From the NCBI GenBank assembly GCA_021818445.1, contig JAKAEB010000003.1, positions 1 through 64,000 of the forward strand: 64,000 nucleotides of DNA, given 5' to 3'. Positions 2,357-64,000 of the stretch are shown here, one piece after another. The notes beneath the pieces are model-generated. The model ran no database searches. It was not told where the DNA came from and was given only the letters and a program-made list of their open reading frames with translations. This DNA comes from Planctomycetota bacterium. GTDB taxonomy: Bacteria; Planctomycetota; Phycisphaerae; WQYP01. The translations under genes and the position numbers were made by a program. Every line of letters starts with the position of its first letter. Positions within the stretch are counted from its first letter, which is position 1.

Positions 2357-2584
2357 TCACCTCAAAAGATACGGTATGTTCACAGTTACTGCGTTGGCGG
2401 GACAATCAACCTGGCAGGGAGTGCAGTACCAGCACTCGTCACGTGCCATATATGCTTTACGTGTGTCCGGGTTGATGGCGAGCGCATCGAGCGGACAGAC
2501 TTCCACACATACGCGACATCCTTCGATGCACTTTGACTGATCGACAACAACGGGCAAATCAAAATGTTGGGTTGCCTGCGGCAT
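2357..2584 (-). CDS. 4Fe-4S ferredoxin (75 aa), AprB-like position
   Basis: Start at MPQATQHFDLP; CIEGCRVCVEVCP and CWYCTPCQVDCP. Confidence 0.85.
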   Translation of the reverse strand: MPQATQHFDLPVVVDQSKCIEGCRVCVEVCPLDALAINPDTRKAYMARDECWYCTPCQVDCPANAVTVNIPYLLR

Positions 2585-2656
2585 AGATATATCTCCTTCT
2601 AAAACGGAACGTCTCGCCATTGCGACTTCGTATCGCGCTGGCACATGGCAGTAAAT

Positions 2657-4384
2657 TCAGACGGCTTGAGTGATGGTCGATGACTCATCAATTCGGAGCC
2701 GACTGTAAGATTCGCGATCGTCCTTTTCCAGCGGCACCACATAAGGCGCAACCGGGCGTTTGATGAATTCCATATTGCCGTCGGGGGTGCGACGCAGATT
2801 TTGATGAACGAACCAGTTGGCGTTATCCGAAACCGGATACTCAACGCGGTAATGATAAAGCCCCCACCTGCTCTCGGTGCGGTTGAGGGAGGCTCGTGCC
2901 GCCATCTCCGCACAGTCACGGATAAAGTGCGCTTCCATCGCGCGCATTAAATCGTGCGGATTTCTGGCACCCATCTGGTCCAGATCGGCCTTGGCGCGAA
3001 TGAAATGCTCCAACCCAATCTCCATACGAGTCGTCAATTTGGGTGGTTGGAGGTAGTCATTTACCATCCGGCGCAACTTGTATTCAACTTGATGGTGCGG
3101 ATACCCATCGGGCTGCGACAACGGTCGGAGCACGCGGTCGCGTTCGGCTTCAACCTGAGCAGGATCGATCTTCGGTTCAGAGACGGTTTTTACGTACTCG
3201 ACGGCGTGTTGGGCGCAGATTTTTCCAAACGTAAATGCGCCGAGAAGGTAATTATGCGGTATTGACGCCATATCGCCAGCGGCATACAGGCCAGGCACCG
3301 TTGTCTCGCCGTTTTCATTAATCCAGACGCCTGATGCACTGTGGCCGCTGCAGAGACCTATTTCACTGATGTGCATTTCCACCATGTCATGACGGTAGCT
3401 TTTTCCTCGATTGGCGTGAAACAATCCGCGAGAAGGGCGTTCCGTCGTATGCATGATGCGCTCAATTTCCGAGATGGTTTCATCCGCCAGATGGTTCATT
3501 TTCAAGTAGACGGGGCCCTTGCCTGAATGGAGCTCGCGGTAAAACTCCATCATCATCTGACCGCTCCAATAGTCACATTGGATAAAGCGATGCCCCTGGG
3601 CGTTGACGGTATGACCGCCAAATGGGCCTGCCACATAGGCGCATGCCGGGCCGTTATAGTCTTTTATTAAAGGGTTAATTTGGAAACACTCGATGTTTGA
3701 AAGTTCGGCACCGGCATGGAACGCCATCGAGTAGCCATCGCCCGCATTGGTTGGCATCTCATAGGTGCCGTAGAGGTATCCCGATGCGGGAAGGCCAAGC
3801 CGACCACACGCGCCGCAGGCCAGGATAACCGCCTTAGCGCGGATGATGACGAATTCGCCGGTGCGGGTATTAAACCCCATAGCACCGGCAATACGACCTG
3901 CGTCCAGAATCAGGCGGGTTGCCATGATCCGGTTTTCAACGCGCACGCCGACGCGTCGTATCTTACGGCAGAGAATTTTCTTCAGGTCGTAGCCTTCGGG
4001 CATGGGAAGCACGTAGCGACCGTTGTGGTGAACTTTTTTCATGTCAAATTCGCCTGTGCTGGTCTTTTGAAATTTGACACCCCAGGAATCCAATTCCGAC
4101 ACCATCGCAGCACTGTTTTGCGCATATCTGAGCAGCGCCCGCTGGTTGACGATGCCATCATTGGCAAGCGTTATTTCCTTGACATAATCCTCCGGCTCCG
4201 CGTGTCCCGGCATGACCGCGTTGTTGAGACCATCCATGCCCATGGTGATCGCACCGCTGCGCCTTATGTTGGCTTTCTCCAGCAAAAGGACGGTGCGATC
4301 TGGCATCGCCTCCTTGGCCTTAATCGCCGCCACCGAACCGGCGCTGCCTCCACCGATAACTAAAATTTCAGTAATAATTTCCAT
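2657..4384 (-). CDS. FAD-dependent oxidoreductase of the fumarate reductase/succinate dehydrogenase/AprA superfamily
   Basis: MEIITEILVIGGGSAGSVAAIKAKE (dinucleotide-binding motif), C-terminal GLYAAGDMAS; directly upstream of a ferredoxin. AprA versus other members not resolvable by eye. Confidence 0.8.
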   Translation of the reverse strand: MEIITEILVIGGGSAGSVAAIKAKEAMPDRTVLLLEKANIRRSGAITMGMDGLNNAVMPGHAEPEDYVKEITLANDGIVNQRALLRYAQNSAAMVSELDSWGVKFQKTSTGEFDMKKVHHNGRYVLPMPEGYDLKKILCRKIRRVGVRVENRIMATRLILDAGRIAGAMGFNTRTGEFVIIRAKAVILACGACGRLGLPASGYLYGTYEMPTNAGDGYSMAFHAGAELSNIECFQINPLIKDYNGPACAYVAGPFGGHTVNAQGHRFIQCDYWSGQMMMEFYRELHSGKGPVYLKMNHLADETISEIERIMHTTERPSRGLFHANRGKSYRHDMVEMHISEIGLCSGHSASGVWINENGETTVPGLYAAGDMASIPHNYLLGAFTFGKICAQHAVEYVKTVSEPKIDPAQVEAERDRVLRPLSQPDGYPHHQVEYKLRRMVNDYLQPPKLTTRMEIGLEHFIRAKADLDQMGARNPHDLMRAMEAHFIRDCAEMAARASLNRTESRWGLYHYRVEYPVSDNANWFVHQNLRRTPDGNMEFIKRPVAPYVVPLEKDDRESYSRLRIDESSTITQAV

Positions 4385-32604: not shown

Positions 32605-34596
32605 GTGACTCGTATTGCCCCTGTAACCTCCGCTCCCAAAGAGATTAGTGAACGCATTGATAACCCTCACGACAGCGTGGCTGCATCGCCTGACCATTCA
32701 CCGGTCGAAACAGAACCTGAACTTGAGGCAAGCATTAACCTTGCCACGCGGCACTTGCTATCCAAACACAACCACAAGGGGTATTGGGTAGGCGAGTTGC
32801 AGGGCGACAGCATATTGGAATCTGAATACGTTCTGATGAAATTTATTCTGGGCCAGGAGAGTGACGCCTGCCTCCCCCTGATTGCAAACTATCTTAGATC
32901 AATTCAACTGCCGGATGGTGGCTGGAGCATGTTCCCCGGAGGGAACAGTGATCTGGCGGGTACAGCCAAGGGTTATTTTGCCCTGAAACTACTGGGGGAT
33001 TCGCCCGATGCGCCGCACATGCGGGCGGCGCGGGATGTGGTACGGCGGCTGGGCGGGGCAGAAAACTGTAACAGCTTTACCAAATTCTTTTTTGCCGCGC
33101 TCGGTCAGGTCAGTTATGCGGCCTGTCCGAGCATCCCGCCGGAAATTATCCTCATTCCCAAATGGATTTACTTCAACCTTTACGCTGTCTCCGCGTGGAG
33201 CCGCACCATGATTTTGCCACTGGCCATTGTCAGTGCATACCGCCCGGTACGAACGCTGCCGGGCGAATTGGGCATCAGCGAATTGTTTAATGATGAATCC
33301 AAGGCGCGCACGGCGGCGGGAAAACTTAAGGGTCTGCCGCGCAGTTGGCGCGAGATGTTTCTGCTGCTGGACTTATCACTTAAGCGTTATGAGAAGACGG
33401 CAGTCACGCCGCTGCGGCCTCTGGCAATCCGCGAGGCGGAAAAATGGCTGCTGGAGCACATGGAAGGGTGCGATGGCCTGGGAGCCATCTTCCCGCCCAT
33501 GGTGTACATACTTATTGTGCTGCGGATATTGGGCTATGCCGACGACCACCCGGTAGTGGTTAAAGCGCAAAAAGACCTGAAAGATTTGTTTATCGAGGAA
33601 GGCGAGACCATCCGGATACAACCTTGCTGGTCACCGGTGTGGGACACAGGTATCGCCATGCACGCATTGGCGGAAGCCGGGCTGACGCACGATCATCCGA
33701 CGGCGCAATCCACCACACGCTGGCTGCTGGAGAAAGAATGCCGCACCGCCAGCGACTGGGCCAAAAACTGCCCAGGGGTGGAGCCATCCGGCTGGTTTTT
33801 TGAATTTAATAACCCGCATTACCCCGATGTGGACGATACGGCCATGGTGACCATGGCACTTAAGCGGCTGGGCGGGCCGGTGGCCGAGCAGGCTGTCCGC
33901 CGAGGTATTAATTGGTTGCTGGCCATGCAGAATGACGACGGCGGTTGGGCGGCGTTTGATCGCACGCGCAACCGTCCGATTTTAGAGCATGTGCCGTTTG
34001 CGGATCATAATGCGATTCAAGACCCTTCATGCCCGGATATTGCCGGTCGTGTGCTGGAATGTCTGGGGCATAACGGGTTTAAAAGCGACCATCCGGCGGT
34101 GCGCAAGGCGGTGCGGTTTTTGCAGGAAACACAGGAGCCTGAGGGGTGCTGGTTCGGTCGCTGGGGCGTCAACTACATCTACGGTACATGGCAGGTTTTG
34201 ACGGGATTGCGGGCGGTCGGCGAGCCGATGGATCAGCGGTTTGTGCGCCGCGCCGCCGACTGGCTGCGTTCGTGTCATAAGCCGGACGGAAGTTGGGGCG
34301 AATCATGCCAGACCTACGACAACCCGGAACTTAAAGGTCGCGGTCCGAGCACACCATCGCAAACCGCTTGGGGTGCCATGGGCTTGATGGCGGCCGCCGG
34401 TCCGCATGACCCACATGTGAAGGCGGCCATCCGCTGGCTCATGGAAAACCAGAATCCGCAGGGTGACTGGGATGAACCGTGGTTTACCGGCACCGGATTT
34501 CCGCGCGTCTTTTATCTCAAATATCACCTGTACCGGCTTTATTTTCCGCTGATGGCGCTGGCGCGGCATCGGCGGCTCTTGCAATCGGGGCGATAG
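32605..34596 (+). CDS. shc: Squalene-hopene cyclase
   Basis: DVDDTAM catalytic motif, multiple QW motifs (QNDDGGWAAFDRT, QEPEGCWFGRWGVNYIYGTW, KPDGSWGESCQTYD). Confidence 0.96.
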   Translation: MTRIAPVTSAPKEISERIDNPHDSVAASPDHSPVETEPELEASINLATRHLLSKHNHKGYWVGELQGDSILESEYVLMKFILGQESDACLPLIANYLRSIQLPDGGWSMFPGGNSDLAGTAKGYFALKLLGDSPDAPHMRAARDVVRRLGGAENCNSFTKFFFAALGQVSYAACPSIPPEIILIPKWIYFNLYAVSAWSRTMILPLAIVSAYRPVRTLPGELGISELFNDESKARTAAGKLKGLPRSWREMFLLLDLSLKRYEKTAVTPLRPLAIREAEKWLLEHMEGCDGLGAIFPPMVYILIVLRILGYADDHPVVVKAQKDLKDLFIEEGETIRIQPCWSPVWDTGIAMHALAEAGLTHDHPTAQSTTRWLLEKECRTASDWAKNCPGVEPSGWFFEFNNPHYPDVDDTAMVTMALKRLGGPVAEQAVRRGINWLLAMQNDDGGWAAFDRTRNRPILEHVPFADHNAIQDPSCPDIAGRVLECLGHNGFKSDHPAVRKAVRFLQETQEPEGCWFGRWGVNYIYGTWQVLTGLRAVGEPMDQRFVRRAADWLRSCHKPDGSWGESCQTYDNPELKGRGPSTPSQTAWGAMGLMAAAGPHDPHVKAAIRWLMENQNPQGDWDEPWFTGTGFPRVFYLKYHLYRLYFPLMALARHRRLLQSGR

Positions 34597-57254: not shown

Positions 57255-60200
57255 CTAGCGTCCAGAGATCGATGGCGGAGCATCTGCACTCGAAGCCGCC
57301 CAGCGACGATCAGGACTGCTGCCCAACGTAAAGTGCAATTGAGCGCCGCTGGTAAGCAGTTTTACGGGTATGAATGCTTTACTCCAGGCGTGGCCGTTAA
57401 CAGTCAGTCCATGGATGTAAGGCTTAGCCGACGGATGGCGGCTGGTTCGGATGACGATCTGCTTGCCGCCGTAGGGTGCTGATAAATGGATCGTTATGCT
57501 GCGGAACGATGGGCTGTTGATTTCCACCACGGGCTTGCCGGGGTCCATCATATAGAAACCCATCATGGTCATGGCGCACCAGGATGACATTTCGCCGCAA
57601 TCATCATTGCCAGGCACGCCATCGAAAGAAAGGGTGTAATTTTGCCGGAGGACTTTGCGAATGGCCGCCTGAGAACGCCATGGCTTGCCCGAGAAATCAA
57701 ATTCAAACGGCGCTTCCAAGTCGGTCTCGTTGTAGGGGTTGTAATATTGATTCTTCCAGCCGGGCTGCTTGTAGCTGAAGAATTTTTCCAGCCGCCGATT
57801 GAATCGCGCCTGCCCCACCGCATGTACCAGCCATGCCATATCACAGGGGGCCAGCCACTGGTAATGCCAGCCGCTTCCTTCAATAAAGCTCGGCCAGGTC
57901 TGCATGGGAGTGAAGGGGCGTTTCCACTGACCGTTGGATAATCTGGGCCGGAAGAAATGATCGTTATGGTCGAAAACATTGCGGAAATACTCGGCCCGAT
58001 GCAGGAAAAGTTCTCGAGATTGAGGCTTATCCAATCGCTTCGCCAAGTGATACAGGGCGGCGTAGGCGACGCAATCTTCCTGAATTTGCGATACGGACCC
58101 GTAACCCTCGTAGTTATCCGGATCAAAATGCAATTTATTAATCCAGTTGATGTTGCTCTCACCTTGATACGGGTGACCGGGTGGTGGTGCCGTGGTAGCG
58201 TCCTTCACCATCCCGCGCCACGCTGCCCGCATGTCAAAGCCGTGAATGCCCTCATCCCACGCCTGGCACATTACGGTGGTAAGCGGACTGCCGCACATCA
58301 CATTGGTGTAATAATGCGATTGCGGCCAACGACCGATCCATCCCCCCTGCTTGTACATCAGCACAATGGACTGGCACATATCAGCCAGCCTGCGCGGAGC
58401 AATAAGGCCGAGCAGAGGCATTTCGCTGCGATAGATATCCCAGCCGCTGTAATCCATGTAATCATCATGGCCTGTCGGCATCTGGTGCACGCGGTTGTCA
58501 AAGCCCATGTACTGACCGTTGACGTCGTTGGAAATGTTCGGCATAAGCATGGAGTGATACAGAGCTGTATAAAACACGGTGTGCTCGGCCCGCGTCCCGC
58601 CGTGCACCTTTACGACTGAAAGCACATGATTCCATCGGGCAAAGGCCGCCGTGCGAAGCGCCTGGAAGCTTTTGCCGGATACCTCGGCATGCAGATTCTT
58701 TTGCGCGTTGGCCACGCTGACATATGAAATGCCAACTTCGGCATTTACCACGCGCTGCACATTTGATCGCGGCCACGACACATACGCCCCGATCCACTGA
58801 TGATGGTTGGTCTGTGTAGCAGTGCGGCTACCGGCGTGCAAGGTGCCATGCCCCTTCATTCCACTGTGTGGCCCGGCCCATGTGCCGAAGGTTTTGAATG
58901 GCTCGGAGAAGTGCATCACAAAATAGACGCGGTAGGTTTGCCCGTTGCCGCAAAAACAGTGATTGGCGTCGTAGCCGGTAATTTCGTCGTTCCCCACGAT
59001 CCGCACATGGGCGGCATGGGTGTAATTGAGCGTTTCACTGATGGGAACCAGCACATTGGCGCGCCGTCCGCCGGGAAACGTGAATTGCGCCACGCCGCAG
59101 CGTGTGGTGGCGGTCAGGGCCGCCCGGACACCCCAGCGGAGCAGGTCTACGCGGTAATAGCCGGCCGCGGCCCGTTCGTGGGCGTGCGAATATCGAGACT
59201 CGAAATTTTTAATACGTGTGTGAATGCCACCTGTGGTGGCGGTAAAAAATACGTCGCCATCGTTATTACATCCCGGCCCGCTCATATGCGTCATGGCAAA
59301 TCCGAGAATGTGGGATTGGTTACTGTGGTAGCCAAAGCCGGTTACCTCGGTGTTGGGGCTGAGCTGCACCATTCCGAAGGGCATGGATGGCCCGGGGAAT
59401 AAATTAATACCACCACCCGGGCCGTTACCGGTACCCAAAAGCGGCTGGACAAAATCAACGGGCGGAGAATTCCGCCACGGCGTAGCGGACTGGCTGATGA
59501 AATAAAACTGGCTTATGTGCTGGATGGCCGCCCCACCGCCACTGGCGGCCGTAAAGCCGACATAGGCCTTGTTTGATTTCACTGCGCCGGGAATATCGAT
59601 AAGTTGACGGGTGGAAAAGGTTTTGCCCGTCTTCAGGTCTTTGAGATGCTCGGTGATGTATACGCCGTTGTATTGAATTTTAACACGGATCGGATCACCA
59701 CTACCAAGCTGCACGGCACCCGTGCTTTCATATTGACCTGCGACCCCTTGCGTATGAGCGCAAAGCCCCGGTCCGTTACCTGGATATAAATTAAATTCCA
59801 CCGCACCGCTGTGCAGAATCGGTGGTGTGCGGTTTTGGCTTCCGTACCCCAGGCCGCCACCATCGCCCCCCAACGCCCGAACACCACGCGGATCATTCTG
59901 AAACACCAGCGCCATGCCGTCGGCCAGCATGCCTGCATGCCCCGGTTTGGCCTGATACGTAAAGCCCACCTGAAAAGCCTGAATATTTTGTCGCTTGCGA
60001 GAGAAAATACTCGCTGCGCGAAACGTGCCGCCATTGGTCAGCGTGATGCCGCCGTTCATCACACGCGGCGCGGGTTCATGGTGGCTATTGGCGGGTGCAA
60101 AAGACCCGAAACCGTTAATGTCCGCCGAGGCCGCCCCCGTGCTGGCGAGCAGCGTCCCGAGAGCCACCACCGCCATTCGCCTGAATACTCGTGTACCCAT
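57255..60200 (-). CDS. GH92-family alpha-mannosidase with N-terminal L-type-lectin-like domain
   Basis: Lectin-like MLADGMALVFQNDPRGVRALGGDGGGLGYG; GH92-like FVQPLLGTGNGPGGGINLFPGPSMPFGMVQLSPNT, GNDDCGEMSSWCAMTMMGFYMMDPG. Confidence 0.92.
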   Translation of the reverse strand: MGTRVFRRMAVVALGTLLASTGAASADINGFGSFAPANSHHEPAPRVMNGGITLTNGGTFRAASIFSRKRQNIQAFQVGFTYQAKPGHAGMLADGMALVFQNDPRGVRALGGDGGGLGYGSQNRTPPILHSGAVEFNLYPGNGPGLCAHTQGVAGQYESTGAVQLGSGDPIRVKIQYNGVYITEHLKDLKTGKTFSTRQLIDIPGAVKSNKAYVGFTAASGGGAAIQHISQFYFISQSATPWRNSPPVDFVQPLLGTGNGPGGGINLFPGPSMPFGMVQLSPNTEVTGFGYHSNQSHILGFAMTHMSGPGCNNDGDVFFTATTGGIHTRIKNFESRYSHAHERAAAGYYRVDLLRWGVRAALTATTRCGVAQFTFPGGRRANVLVPISETLNYTHAAHVRIVGNDEITGYDANHCFCGNGQTYRVYFVMHFSEPFKTFGTWAGPHSGMKGHGTLHAGSRTATQTNHHQWIGAYVSWPRSNVQRVVNAEVGISYVSVANAQKNLHAEVSGKSFQALRTAAFARWNHVLSVVKVHGGTRAEHTVFYTALYHSMLMPNISNDVNGQYMGFDNRVHQMPTGHDDYMDYSGWDIYRSEMPLLGLIAPRRLADMCQSIVLMYKQGGWIGRWPQSHYYTNVMCGSPLTTVMCQAWDEGIHGFDMRAAWRGMVKDATTAPPPGHPYQGESNINWINKLHFDPDNYEGYGSVSQIQEDCVAYAALYHLAKRLDKPQSRELFLHRAEYFRNVFDHNDHFFRPRLSNGQWKRPFTPMQTWPSFIEGSGWHYQWLAPCDMAWLVHAVGQARFNRRLEKFFSYKQPGWKNQYYNPYNETDLEAPFEFDFSGKPWRSQAAIRKVLRQNYTLSFDGVPGNDDCGEMSSWCAMTMMGFYMMDPGKPVVEINSPSFRSITIHLSAPYGGKQIVIRTSRHPSAKPYIHGLTVNGHAWSKAFIPVKLLTSGAQLHFTLGSSPDRRWAASSADAPPSISGR

Positions 60201-60520
60201 CTTCAACACCCTTTCCATTTTTTGCGGTTGAACACCGCGAGCGAGAAAATTGAAATCTTTCGGCACCACCTGCCGCCATATCACCGAGAACGGTTGAACC
60301 GTTTCGGTATTTCAAGACTGCTACATATTGTGCCAGAAAAAGAAATAATGCAACTTATCCGGGCTGCCATATCAAGTATGCTCGGCCGCGTAGCCGCAAA
60401 ACCCGACCATCTGGCTGTCAAAATTTCAGCCGCGTGGCACACGGATAGCCTCCAGCTATGAATGGTCGTGGTGCGATGCCCATCAACATATTTCCTTGCA
60501 AATCGGACTAAAATGTCGTA

Positions 60521-60536
60521 ACCTAAAAAGTTAGGT
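60521..60536. promoter_or_regulatory. Candidate BlaI operator
   Basis: ACCTAA-AAAG-TTAGGT palindrome 15 nt upstream of the blaI start, overlapping a possible -10. Confidence 0.55.
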
Positions 60537-60551
60537 GATGAGGAATTTGCG

Positions 60552-60926
60552 ATGGCATATGGCCAAAAGCCTTCAGATAGGGAACTCAACATCCTCAAAG
60601 TGCTTTGGGAACGCGGGCCAAGCACCGTGCGACAGGTGACGGACGTCATTTGTGAAAAGGAAAATCTTGCCCAAAATACGATTCAGACTTTTCTCCGCTT
60701 AATGGAAGACAAAGGGCTCGTAACCCATGAGGAATGTGGCCGCGCTTTTGTCTACCGCGCCGTTTACCAGCGATCACAGGTGGTAAAGGGATTCGTCGCA
60801 TCTATCTTCGACGGGGCCATCGATCAACTGGTGGTACATGCCGTGGATGGTGGAAAATTAACGGACGATCAACTCGCCAAAATTGAGGCTAAAATTCGCG
60901 CCCTCCGGCAGGAGGCAAGAGAATGA
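60552..60926 (+). CDS. blaI: BlaI/MecI/CopY-family transcriptional regulator
   Basis: LSDRELNILKVLWERGPSTVRQV-like N-terminus, NTIQTFLRLMEDKGLVTHEECGRAFVYRA. Confidence 0.95.
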   Translation: MAYGQKPSDRELNILKVLWERGPSTVRQVTDVICEKENLAQNTIQTFLRLMEDKGLVTHEECGRAFVYRAVYQRSQVVKGFVASIFDGAIDQLVVHAVDGGKLTDDQLAKIEAKIRALRQEARE

Positions 60927-62884
60927 CTAGTATTGCTCTCTGGCTGGCAGATTGGTTGTTTTCTGGCATGCTGATTCTGGCGGCTGGTGCGATGGCGGTT
61001 GCGTTCTGCCCGCATGTGGTACTTCGTGAACGCATAGCGGAATTCGCATTAGTGGCGGCTGTGCTGGTTGCCATTCCAACTGCGGTTCCGCACGCCCACC
61101 GCTTTTCGCTGGGGTTAATCCCCACATCCGCACGTGCGGCAAAGACTCTGCACATCGGGTTGGTGCCGTGGAACTCGGCTGGGAAACATTCGCCAGCCGC
61201 ACAAACGGCTGATTCAACCCACCCAACGATCAGCCATCCCGGCCAACTTCCTATTTCCTCCCATGCCATTTCCCACTGGCAGAATTGGCTTCCGTGGGCA
61301 TATGCCGCCGGTGTGATGTTTATGCTTGGCCGACTGATTGTCGGCGTCTTCCTGCTGCGGAGAATTACAAAAAACGCCCGGCGCATCGATCTGCCTCTGC
61401 CTGCGGATTTGCAGTCGCAATCTCGGCACGCGCGGATTGACATCGCGGTCTCTCCCGCCGTTGTATCGCCCATGGCAACGGGGTGGCGGGTGCCCGTTAT
61501 TTTGCTGCCGATGGGTTTTGCCGCCCTCCCCGAGATCAATTCTATCGTGGCGCATGAATTGGCCCACGTTCGTCGGCAGGATGTGCGATGGCGGTATCTG
61601 ATAGCGCTGGCCAATGCCATATTATTTGTTAATCCGCTGGCCTATTACCTTGCAAGCCAGGCAAGGCTTTCGCAGGAGATCATGGCGGATCGATCTGCGG
61701 CGAATTCCGGGCGTGGTTCCATCGCGTACGCGGAAATGCTTCTGTCCTTGCTCAAGGCTGCGCAGCCCGGCACAAAAATGGTGCGGACTACCACTATGCT
61801 GCTTGGAGGCAGATCAGACATGCTGCGGCGGTTGGAGTACATAGCAGCGGGAAAATCGACTGGACCTGCCGCACTTGGGCGTCCGCTGATATTGGGCCTG
61901 ATGACGACGGCCGCAGCGGCCAGTGCAGCAGCATCTGCCGTCACGCTGCAACATTCACGCGATGTGCATACCATCACAAAGACAACGCCATTCGGCGATT
62001 CGCCTCTGTGGCGCAGCGCCGACCAGATGCGGCTCGCTGCCTTGCGATACCTGAGCCGCCGACAAGAACCGGATGGGGCATGGCTGGGACGGTATGGCCC
62101 GGCGGTGACGGCATTGGTTATCCGCGCCTTCCTGAAGGCGGGCGAACCGTCAACGGCACCACAGGTTGCCCGTGGCCTTCAATTTATTCAAACCTGCCGT
62201 CAGGTCAATGGGGGATATTATTTGTTTGATGAGCCGGCCTACAACACCGCGATCGTCATTCGGACGCTTTCGATGCTTCACGGTAGAACCTATGCCCGCC
62301 GCTGTAGCAAAGCCATGGCATTCTTGCAGTCGATCGCCCGACCGCAATTCGTCACCAGCCAGGGGTTAAGGCATTGGTTTTACGCCCGTGGCGACGGCAT
62401 GCAAAGTCCGCCATTACACGTCACTTCGCCATCCCGGTCGCCGGCTATTGATGCACAGGGTGCTGGAGAGCTTGATCCGCATGAACGGGCGGGCAATGTG
62501 CGCGTGGGCGGCTATGGGTCGATCACCTATGCGCAACTGAAAAGTATGGTTTATGCGGACCTTTCACCGCACGATCCGCGGGTTGCCAAACTTTTGCGAT
62601 GGCTGCGTGAGGACACCATGATCCAAACGGATCCCGCTGCGCACGGCGGGAAGGGGTTATTTTATTTTTGCCTTGTTTATGCGCGCGTGATGCATGCCAT
62701 GGAAGATGCCAAAGCCCGTGCCAAAATCCACGCCTGGCGACCGCGTCTGGTTGCCTTGATGCGGAAGCTGCGTCGGCCCGGTGGATATTGGAGAAATACG
62801 GCATCGCCCCAATGGCTGGAGGGCAATCGTATCATGGCCACGACTTATGCCGCCCTGATTTTAGATAATATTCTTACCCGTTGA
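60923..62884 (+). CDS. BlaR1-type M56 metalloprotease fused to a squalene-cyclase/prenyltransferase-like repeat domain
   Basis: HELAHVRRQDVRW (HExxH), RLSQEIMADRSA, then after a TM helix AALRYLSRRQEPDGAWLGRYGPAVTALVIRAFLKAG...QVNGGYYLF; ATGA overlap with blaI. Confidence 0.88.
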   Translation: MTSIALWLADWLFSGMLILAAGAMAVAFCPHVVLRERIAEFALVAAVLVAIPTAVPHAHRFSLGLIPTSARAAKTLHIGLVPWNSAGKHSPAAQTADSTHPTISHPGQLPISSHAISHWQNWLPWAYAAGVMFMLGRLIVGVFLLRRITKNARRIDLPLPADLQSQSRHARIDIAVSPAVVSPMATGWRVPVILLPMGFAALPEINSIVAHELAHVRRQDVRWRYLIALANAILFVNPLAYYLASQARLSQEIMADRSAANSGRGSIAYAEMLLSLLKAAQPGTKMVRTTTMLLGGRSDMLRRLEYIAAGKSTGPAALGRPLILGLMTTAAAASAAASAVTLQHSRDVHTITKTTPFGDSPLWRSADQMRLAALRYLSRRQEPDGAWLGRYGPAVTALVIRAFLKAGEPSTAPQVARGLQFIQTCRQVNGGYYLFDEPAYNTAIVIRTLSMLHGRTYARRCSKAMAFLQSIARPQFVTSQGLRHWFYARGDGMQSPPLHVTSPSRSPAIDAQGAGELDPHERAGNVRVGGYGSITYAQLKSMVYADLSPHDPRVAKLLRWLREDTMIQTDPAAHGGKGLFYFCLVYARVMHAMEDAKARAKIHAWRPRLVALMRKLRRPGGYWRNTASPQWLEGNRIMATTYAALILDNILTR

Positions 62885-62916
62885 TATCTATGTTCCATGT
62901 TAGAGGAGTCAGACAC

Positions 62917-64000
62917 ATGACCGGACGATTTAATACGATAATCAGACATGCCCTGCTTGTCGCCGTGGCTGGCGGACTGATGGCCGCGCATTGTGTGCAA
63001 GCTAAACCGCTTTACCAGACCGACCGACCGCTGGGCAAAGGATTGCATTATCTGCTGGAGCACCAGAACCCGAATGGCAGTTGGGTGCCACAGGTCGGTC
63101 CCGCCGTTACTGCCTTGGTGGTAAAGGCCCTGATTCAAGCCGGTTACACCCCCCACTTCAAACCGATTGCCAAGGCGATGACATTTATAGAATCGACGCG
63201 TGGCCCGGACGGGGGTTTTTCTGAACAGGTACTGCCCAACTACAACACCTGCATCGTCCTGAGCACGCTTGCCATTATGCCGGGCCACACCTACCAAAAG
63301 CAGATCAAGGCGGCGCAGCATTTTTTAATATCCCTGCAGCGTGTTGCCCCGATGAAGGAAGCCAACGGTAAAGTAATCACCAAAAACAGTTCATGGTACG
63401 GAGGAGTTGGTTACGGAACGGGGCGTCCGGATTTGTCCAACACGTCTTTCTTCATACAAGCGTTGCATGATTCGGGCGTGCCGGCATCCAACCCCGCCAT
63501 GAAACGGGCTTTGGTTTTTGTGGAGCGGTGCCAGGAGAACAGCGAAACCAATCCTGAACCATTTGCCAAGGGATTGCACAACGGCGGTTTTATCTACACC
63601 GCCGCCAACGGAGGCGAATCGCAATTCGGCGACACCGACCACCTCAGCGGCCGGGCCACCTTGACGCCCTACGGCACCATGACCTATGCCGGGCTTAAAA
63701 GCATGATTTATGCAGGTCTTACCAAGCGCAGCCCGCAGGTACGCGCCGCCTTGGGATGGATACGATCGCACTGGACGCTGAATTACAACCCGGGTACCGG
63801 TGGCAGCCGCATGGGATTGTTTTATTATTATCTGATGTTTGCCCGTACCTTCCGGGCACTGCGGGTCTCCACCATCACCGATATCAATGGTGTGAAGCAC
63901 AACTGGCGGCACGAGATACGCGGGAAACTTATCAGTCTGCAAAATAAAAATGGATCGTGGTTCAATAAATGGAGCGACCGCTGGTTGGAAAAAGTTGCGC
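62917..64000 (+). CDS. Secreted squalene-cyclase/prenyltransferase-like repeat protein (3' truncated by window end)
   Basis: ATG 62917 after GAGGAG: MTGRFNTIIRHALLVAVAGGLMAAHCVQAKPLYQTDRPLGKGLHYLLEHQNPNGSWVPQVGPAVTALVVKALIQAG...; open to the edge, so absent from the ORF track. Confidence 0.88.
   Translation, partial: MTGRFNTIIRHALLVAVAGGLMAAHCVQAKPLYQTDRPLGKGLHYLLEHQNPNGSWVPQVGPAVTALVVKALIQAGYTPHFKPIAKAMTFIESTRGPDGGFSEQVLPNYNTCIVLSTLAIMPGHTYQKQIKAAQHFLISLQRVAPMKEANGKVITKNSSWYGGVGYGTGRPDLSNTSFFIQALHDSGVPASNPAMKRALVFVERCQENSETNPEPFAKGLHNGGFIYTAANGGESQFGDTDHLSGRATLTPYGTMTYAGLKSMIYAGLTKRSPQVRAALGWIRSHWTLNYNPGTGGSRMGLFYYYLMFARTFRALRVSTITDINGVKHNWRHEIRGKLISLQNKNGSWFNKWSDRWLEKVA

Follow-up and report, generated by a model that had tools for sequence, protein, structure and literature searches.

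BlaR1-type switches are best known as regulators of antibiotic resistance. The planctomycete locus characterized here possesses the same BlaI-family repressor and the same adjacent M56 membrane protease with an HExxH...E motif as the BlaR1-BlaI and MecR1-MecI systems of staphylococci and bacilli, together with a similar transmembrane layout and a C-terminal extracytoplasmic sensor. In BlaR1 and MecR1, the sensor domain is related to an enzyme family, the class D beta-lactamases (PMC9834060). The planctomycete sensor is likewise related to an enzyme family, yet it is an alpha/alpha toroid; the predicted operator is CCTAR-N4-YTAGG, and the putative regulon consists of a toroid protein, an inositol-phosphate synthase and porins, with no beta-lactamase gene seen in the operon. 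Compared with CopY/TcrY-type repressors, the BlaI protein matches CopY_TcrY at 58 bits, below the cut-off of 122, and differs in its linked M56 protease and in that no copper genes were recognized nearby. The switch is thus of the BlaR1 type, with a new sensor and a testable regulon, and its architecture is otherwise of a known kind. A literature search, which covered few subscription journals, returned no account of an M56 protein bearing a toroid sensor.

The window analyzed is a stretch of 64,000 nucleotides, corresponding to bases 1-64000 of the 113568 on contig 43 of a 3.7-Mb genome (G000). The features of the locus are as follows:

60521-60536, no strand assigned: predicted operator palindrome ACCTAA-AAAG-TTAGGT (ACCTAAaaagTTAGGT), 15 bp upstream of the blaI start codon
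60552-60926, plus strand: BlaI-family repressor, 124 aa (Penicillinase_R, PF03965, 87.8 bits against a cut-off of 22.6)
60923-62884, plus strand: M56 protease fused to the putative extracytoplasmic toroid sensor (Tor1), 653 aa (Peptidase_M56 and SQHop_cyclase_C matches)
61151-61159, plus strand: His-Ile-Gly motif of the extracytoplasmic TM2-TM3 loop, aa 77-79, conserved in the fusions
61553-61567, plus strand: HELAH zinc motif of the M56 protease, aa 211-215
61676-61678, plus strand: third ligand E252, the glutamate of QEIMADR
61877-61948, plus strand: last transmembrane segment, aa 319-342, before the toroid (hydropathy peak at 322-340; helix 319-349 in a low-confidence model)
62006-62875, plus strand: toroid sensor domain Tor1, aa 362-651 (from BLASTP to Tor2 and alignments)
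62917-64000 in the window, ending at contig position 64053, plus strand: secreted toroid protein Tor2, 378 aa, with a signal-peptide-like N-terminus
Contig 64189-65724, downstream of the Tor2 gene: OprO/P-type porin
Contig 65721-66881, downstream of the Tor2 gene: Ino1-like inositol-phosphate synthase (MIPS)

The genes for BlaI, the M56-toroid fusion and the secreted toroid form one unit that continues beyond the end of the window. The start of the fusion gene overlaps the blaI stop codon (ATGA), and the Tor2 gene, which begins at the ATG at 62917, is cut by the window. The downstream MIPS has the match expected of a full-length Ino1 protein (1gr0, E 8e-106 over 10-375) and also matches PF01658, while it scores 387 bits against TIGR03450, under that family's mycothiol-specific cut-off of 638. 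Upstream of blaI, a large divergent reading frame (57255-60284, minus strand) reads like a secreted glycoside hydrolase.

The original prediction had described the second gene product as an M56 protease with HELAH and QEIMADR motifs, preceded by BlaI and followed by a transmembrane helix and squalene-cyclase/prenyltransferase-like repeats, and the profile and hydropathy analyses bear out this order. Peptidase_M56 (PF05569, 91.1 bits) covers aa 84-307, and SQHop_cyclase_C (30 bits) covers aa 367-432 of the same 653-aa frame. The HExxH motif and its downstream glutamate are both present, and H211, E212, H215 and E252 are unchanged across 12 aligned orthologues. Hydropathy places hydrophobic segments at about aa 16-34, 38-56, 127-145, 226-244 and 322-340, the last of which precedes the toroid; the resulting layout of TM1, TM2, a loop of about 65 residues, TM3, a protease with a hydrophobic stretch, TM4 and toroid is the plan of BlaR1. 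BlaR1 is also the top solved relative of the M56 half (8exs, E 1e-22), and the fusion scores 55 bits against blaR1_generic, where the cut-off is 400. A penicillin-binding fold in the C-terminus, which would have spoken against the original prediction, was not found: neither the fusion nor Tor2 has a transpeptidase or beta-lactamase Pfam match or a K[TS]G motif, and both SxxK strings fall in the M56 part and not in the toroid. The TM2-TM3 loop is variable save for the His-Ile-Gly motif (H77 in 12 of 14 fusions, I78 and G79 in 13 of 14). As part of the corresponding BlaR1 loop, EL1, is predicted to lie within the sensor groove (PMC9834060), this motif may, by analogy, act as a tethered plug.

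The next gene was said to encode a signal-peptide-bearing protein of the same repeat family. Indeed, Tor1 and Tor2 align by BLASTP over 347 columns at 30% identity (E 1e-42), and the two similar segments singled out beforehand both lie within this alignment. An AlphaFold2 model of the 361 Tor2 residues inside the window (mean pLDDT 89.3, pTM 0.87) contains eleven toroid helices, in keeping with the ring of about 12 antiparallel helices that characterizes an alpha/alpha toroid. The model of the fusion is poor (P0001, mean pLDDT 62, although over 90 for most of aa 370-470), and the fold of Tor1 therefore rests on its homology to Tor2. A helical hairpin bearing an RPD.SN motif, which is invariant in 31 Tor2 sequences, is missing from Tor1, and about 55 residues predicted to be disordered (aa 475-531, pLDDT under 50) stand where Tor2 has its RPDLSN hairpin. 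Many of the residues that do not vary in either set of toroids are nevertheless retained in Tor1, among them Y440, T442, Y536, K540, S541, W605, E633 and Y642.

Tor2 resembles squalene-hopene cyclases, MstE, drimenyl-diphosphate synthase and the C3d/C5 TED in its fold and in weak profile matches (SQHop_cyclase_C, 41.6 bits), but unlike these proteins it is a secreted single toroid. Its PDB matches are a mixture of terpenoid cyclases, complement thioester domains and sugar-acting toroids, with TM-scores of about 0.5 or below, so that the fold is clear but the chemistry is not. A motif scan of both proteins revealed no thioester and, as had been noticed by eye, no DxDD, and Tor2 scores 27-48 bits, far below the cut-offs of 323-851 at which it would be assigned to the squalene-hopene or terpene cyclase families. 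The toroid thus belongs with the helical-hairpin repeats of the terpenoid-cyclase/prenyltransferase superfamily, as had been proposed, while nothing points to the isoprenoid chemistry that those names might suggest. The secreted toroid of one relative (G014, L050:1586-2788) carries LILALSGCNR near its N-terminus, a possible lipobox, and some Tor2 proteins may therefore be lipoproteins.

The fusion is present in 15 genomes of the family, namely that of the window and 14 others with orthologues. A profile search of 343 genomes drawn from the phylum, in which three candidates were scored per genome, returned no full-length fusion beyond the window's own genome, and a single-sequence scan of the genome-contig collection with the fusion protein gave no match. 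The close relatives are uncultured Phycisphaerales/Planctomycetota, several of them apparently from acid mines, judging from isolate names only. The usual order of the fusion locus is blaI, fusion, Tor2, in some cases a porin, and MIPS; in G007, G009 and G011, Tor2 and MIPS are located elsewhere. Nine further family genomes (G001, G010, G013, G015, G017, G018, G020, G026 and G027) possess Tor2 with MIPS but without the fusion, G018 being counted because its Tor2 match adjoins MIPS, although the Tor2 frame was displaced in ORF picking. The switch is thus dispensable, as family members that lack it still retain both Tor2 and MIPS.

Relatives of Tor2 occur across Planctomycetota without the fusion, and the genome collection contains at least 590 stretches that match it. 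Tor2 is thus a member of a family of secreted planctomycete toroids, which in 66 inspected loci outside the family of the fusion genomes are linked to neither the M56 fusion nor MIPS. There is likewise no consistent functional partner in those surroundings, the commonest neighbor being an upstream protein with the look of a glycosyltransferase (12 of 65 loci). The secreted toroid is older than the switch and a gene in its own right. The original prediction had cast it as a partner of the sensor; it is indeed linked and apparently co-regulated, but at least nine family genomes, and others across the phylum, have it and lack the fusion, which shows that it is not merely that. When 57 toroids were placed in a tree, a branch with support of 100/98 separated the 15 sensor toroids from all others, and sequence comparison thus indicates a single origin for the sensor. 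The fused toroids also change more quickly than the secreted ones. In the pair G000 and G003, identity is 62-63% for the fusion protein and 85% for Tor2.

The palindrome at 60521-60536 was proposed as the BlaI binding site, and its conservation is consistent with that role. The window contains one copy of CCTARNNNNYTAGG where 0.08 are expected, and the palindrome is the sole perfect match in the window's genome. It generalizes to CCTAR-N4-YTAGG, found just upstream of blaI in 14 of the 15 fusion genomes, the fifteenth, G011, having ACTTAAgagtTTAAGT at blaI; as the pattern was chosen after these sites had been seen, they do not constitute independent evidence. Genome-wide, the motif is present in all 14 fusion genomes searched (1-3 copies each) and in none of six relatives without the fusion, for which an exact test gives 1/38760, a statistic that ignores kinship.

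The absence of the motif from the non-fusion genomes is independent of the choice of pattern, as are the sites at genes that have been split off from the locus. Against a background of 250-bp windows with a median site score of -4.1 and 5% at 3.0, sites with the motif or a variant of it lie upstream of the split-off Tor2 genes of G007 (22.2), G009 (19.2) and G011 (14.0) and of the split-off MIPS genes of G009 (18.9) and G011 (13.7); the MIPS of G007 has a weaker site (14.0) at the 3' end of the porin gene. In contrast, the highest score in non-fusion genomes is 2.0 for Tor2 and 0.3 for MIPS genes. OprB porins with a site were found in G002, G004, G005, G019, G023 and G024. We read these sites as those of a small inositol/porin/toroid regulon under BlaI control, with BlaI binding predicted from sequence. 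The genes beyond position 64000 accordingly point to common regulation of the locus, and not to the unrelated regulation that further sequence might have revealed. In G000, only the blaI site is convincing, so that any BlaI control of the porin and MIPS farther down would rely on read-through. Further palindromes at G000:C80, G008:C130, G019:C56 and G023:C277 were rejected as regulon members, as they look like chance occurrences; about half of the extra exact palindromes, at unrelated genes, are probably due to chance. An OprB porin copy in the genome of the window (G000:C121:111-1202) contains one in-frame TGA.

Together, these observations make it probable that the locus encodes a transmembrane proteolytic derepression switch of the BlaR1/BlaI type, in which a toroid sensor controls a regulon. 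BlaI would repress its own operon and the small regulon through the CCTAR-N4-YTAGG palindromes, and the M56 membrane protein would display the toroid outside the cytoplasm. By analogy with BlaR1, binding of a ligand to the toroid would most likely activate the cytoplasmic zinc protease and lead to inactivation of BlaI, upon which the operon, the secreted toroid protein, the Ino1-like synthase and the porin would be expressed. The proposal of a proteolytic switch with a non-beta-lactam toroid sensor and a linked secreted paralogue thus appears well supported, both by the shared operon and by the common predicted operator where the genes are split.

If the M56 protein were a vestigial protease, or one unrelated to the switch, BlaI would be a simple repressor answering another input; this is highly improbable, given that the catalytic residues are all invariant in orthologues down to 30% identity and that blaI and the M56 gene lie side by side wherever the contig of a fusion locus contains the two. 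It is also conceivable that the M56 protease answers membrane or envelope stress and that the toroid, as an appendage with a structural or regulatory role, does not sense the ligand. A BlaR1 homologue of M. tuberculosis has no sensor domain (PMC9834060), and other M56 proteins of the phylum bear varied C-terminal domains, such as carboxypeptidase-regulatory-like and GspD N0 domains. Yet the many Tor2-invariant residues kept by Tor1 suggest that binding has been retained, and we consider a mere appendage quite improbable.

The toroid might alternatively bind secreted Tor2 itself, such that the circuit measures the level or occupancy of Tor2 as feedback and there is no free ligand. While the Tor2 gene belongs to the same operon in most fusion genomes, and the loss of one hairpin from a paralogous sensor might expose a face to which a partner could dock, Tor2 is conserved across the phylum where no such sensor exists, and the combination of a fast-evolving Tor1 with a slow-evolving Tor2 is atypical of a tight pair. 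Direct binding of Tor2 is therefore an unlikely explanation. The sensor is a degenerate copy of the secreted toroid, and a ligand-sensing switch would hence most likely respond to whatever ligand is bound or processed by Tor2, which is the simplest guess. The link to inositol-phosphate synthesis and porins points weakly to a phosphorylated or carbohydrate compound. The fuller proposal, that the sensor was recruited from the secreted protein that it regulates, lost the RPD.SN hairpin but kept much of the likely ligand pocket, and senses the Tor2 ligand in a circuit coupled to myo-inositol-phosphate synthesis, is a serious possibility that we put forward tentatively.

Comparison alone thus points to a particular operator sequence, delimits a small regulon and traces the sensor to its source protein, and it renders testable the general question of whether the sensor of a BlaI/M56 system is drawn from the very protein whose substrate the system detects. 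Inositol phosphate and porins also provide a first functional handle on the secreted toroid family found across Planctomycetota. If true, the recruited-sensor reading would offer a route to the ligand of this large, unstudied family, and we know of no earlier BlaI/M56 regulon for inositol metabolism.

Some minor observations concern neighboring genes and additional operator copies. A squalene-hopene cyclase gene lies in the window 27 kb upstream (33631-34575; PF13243, 457.6 bits); a connection to the switch was considered but found no support, as there is no exact operator match there and a three-mismatch match at 33575 is within chance. In G002, a second operator copy (L109, 2462) precedes a gene for a 180-aa AraC-type HTH protein (2488-3030), and beside it a 399-aa frame (L109:1237-2436) that partly resembles an out-of-frame copy of blaI suggests a partial duplication. 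Finally, a perfect operator-like palindrome in G009:C62 (L102:2830) lies upstream of an esterase-like gene (BD-FAE), which may be either a member of the regulon or a chance occurrence.
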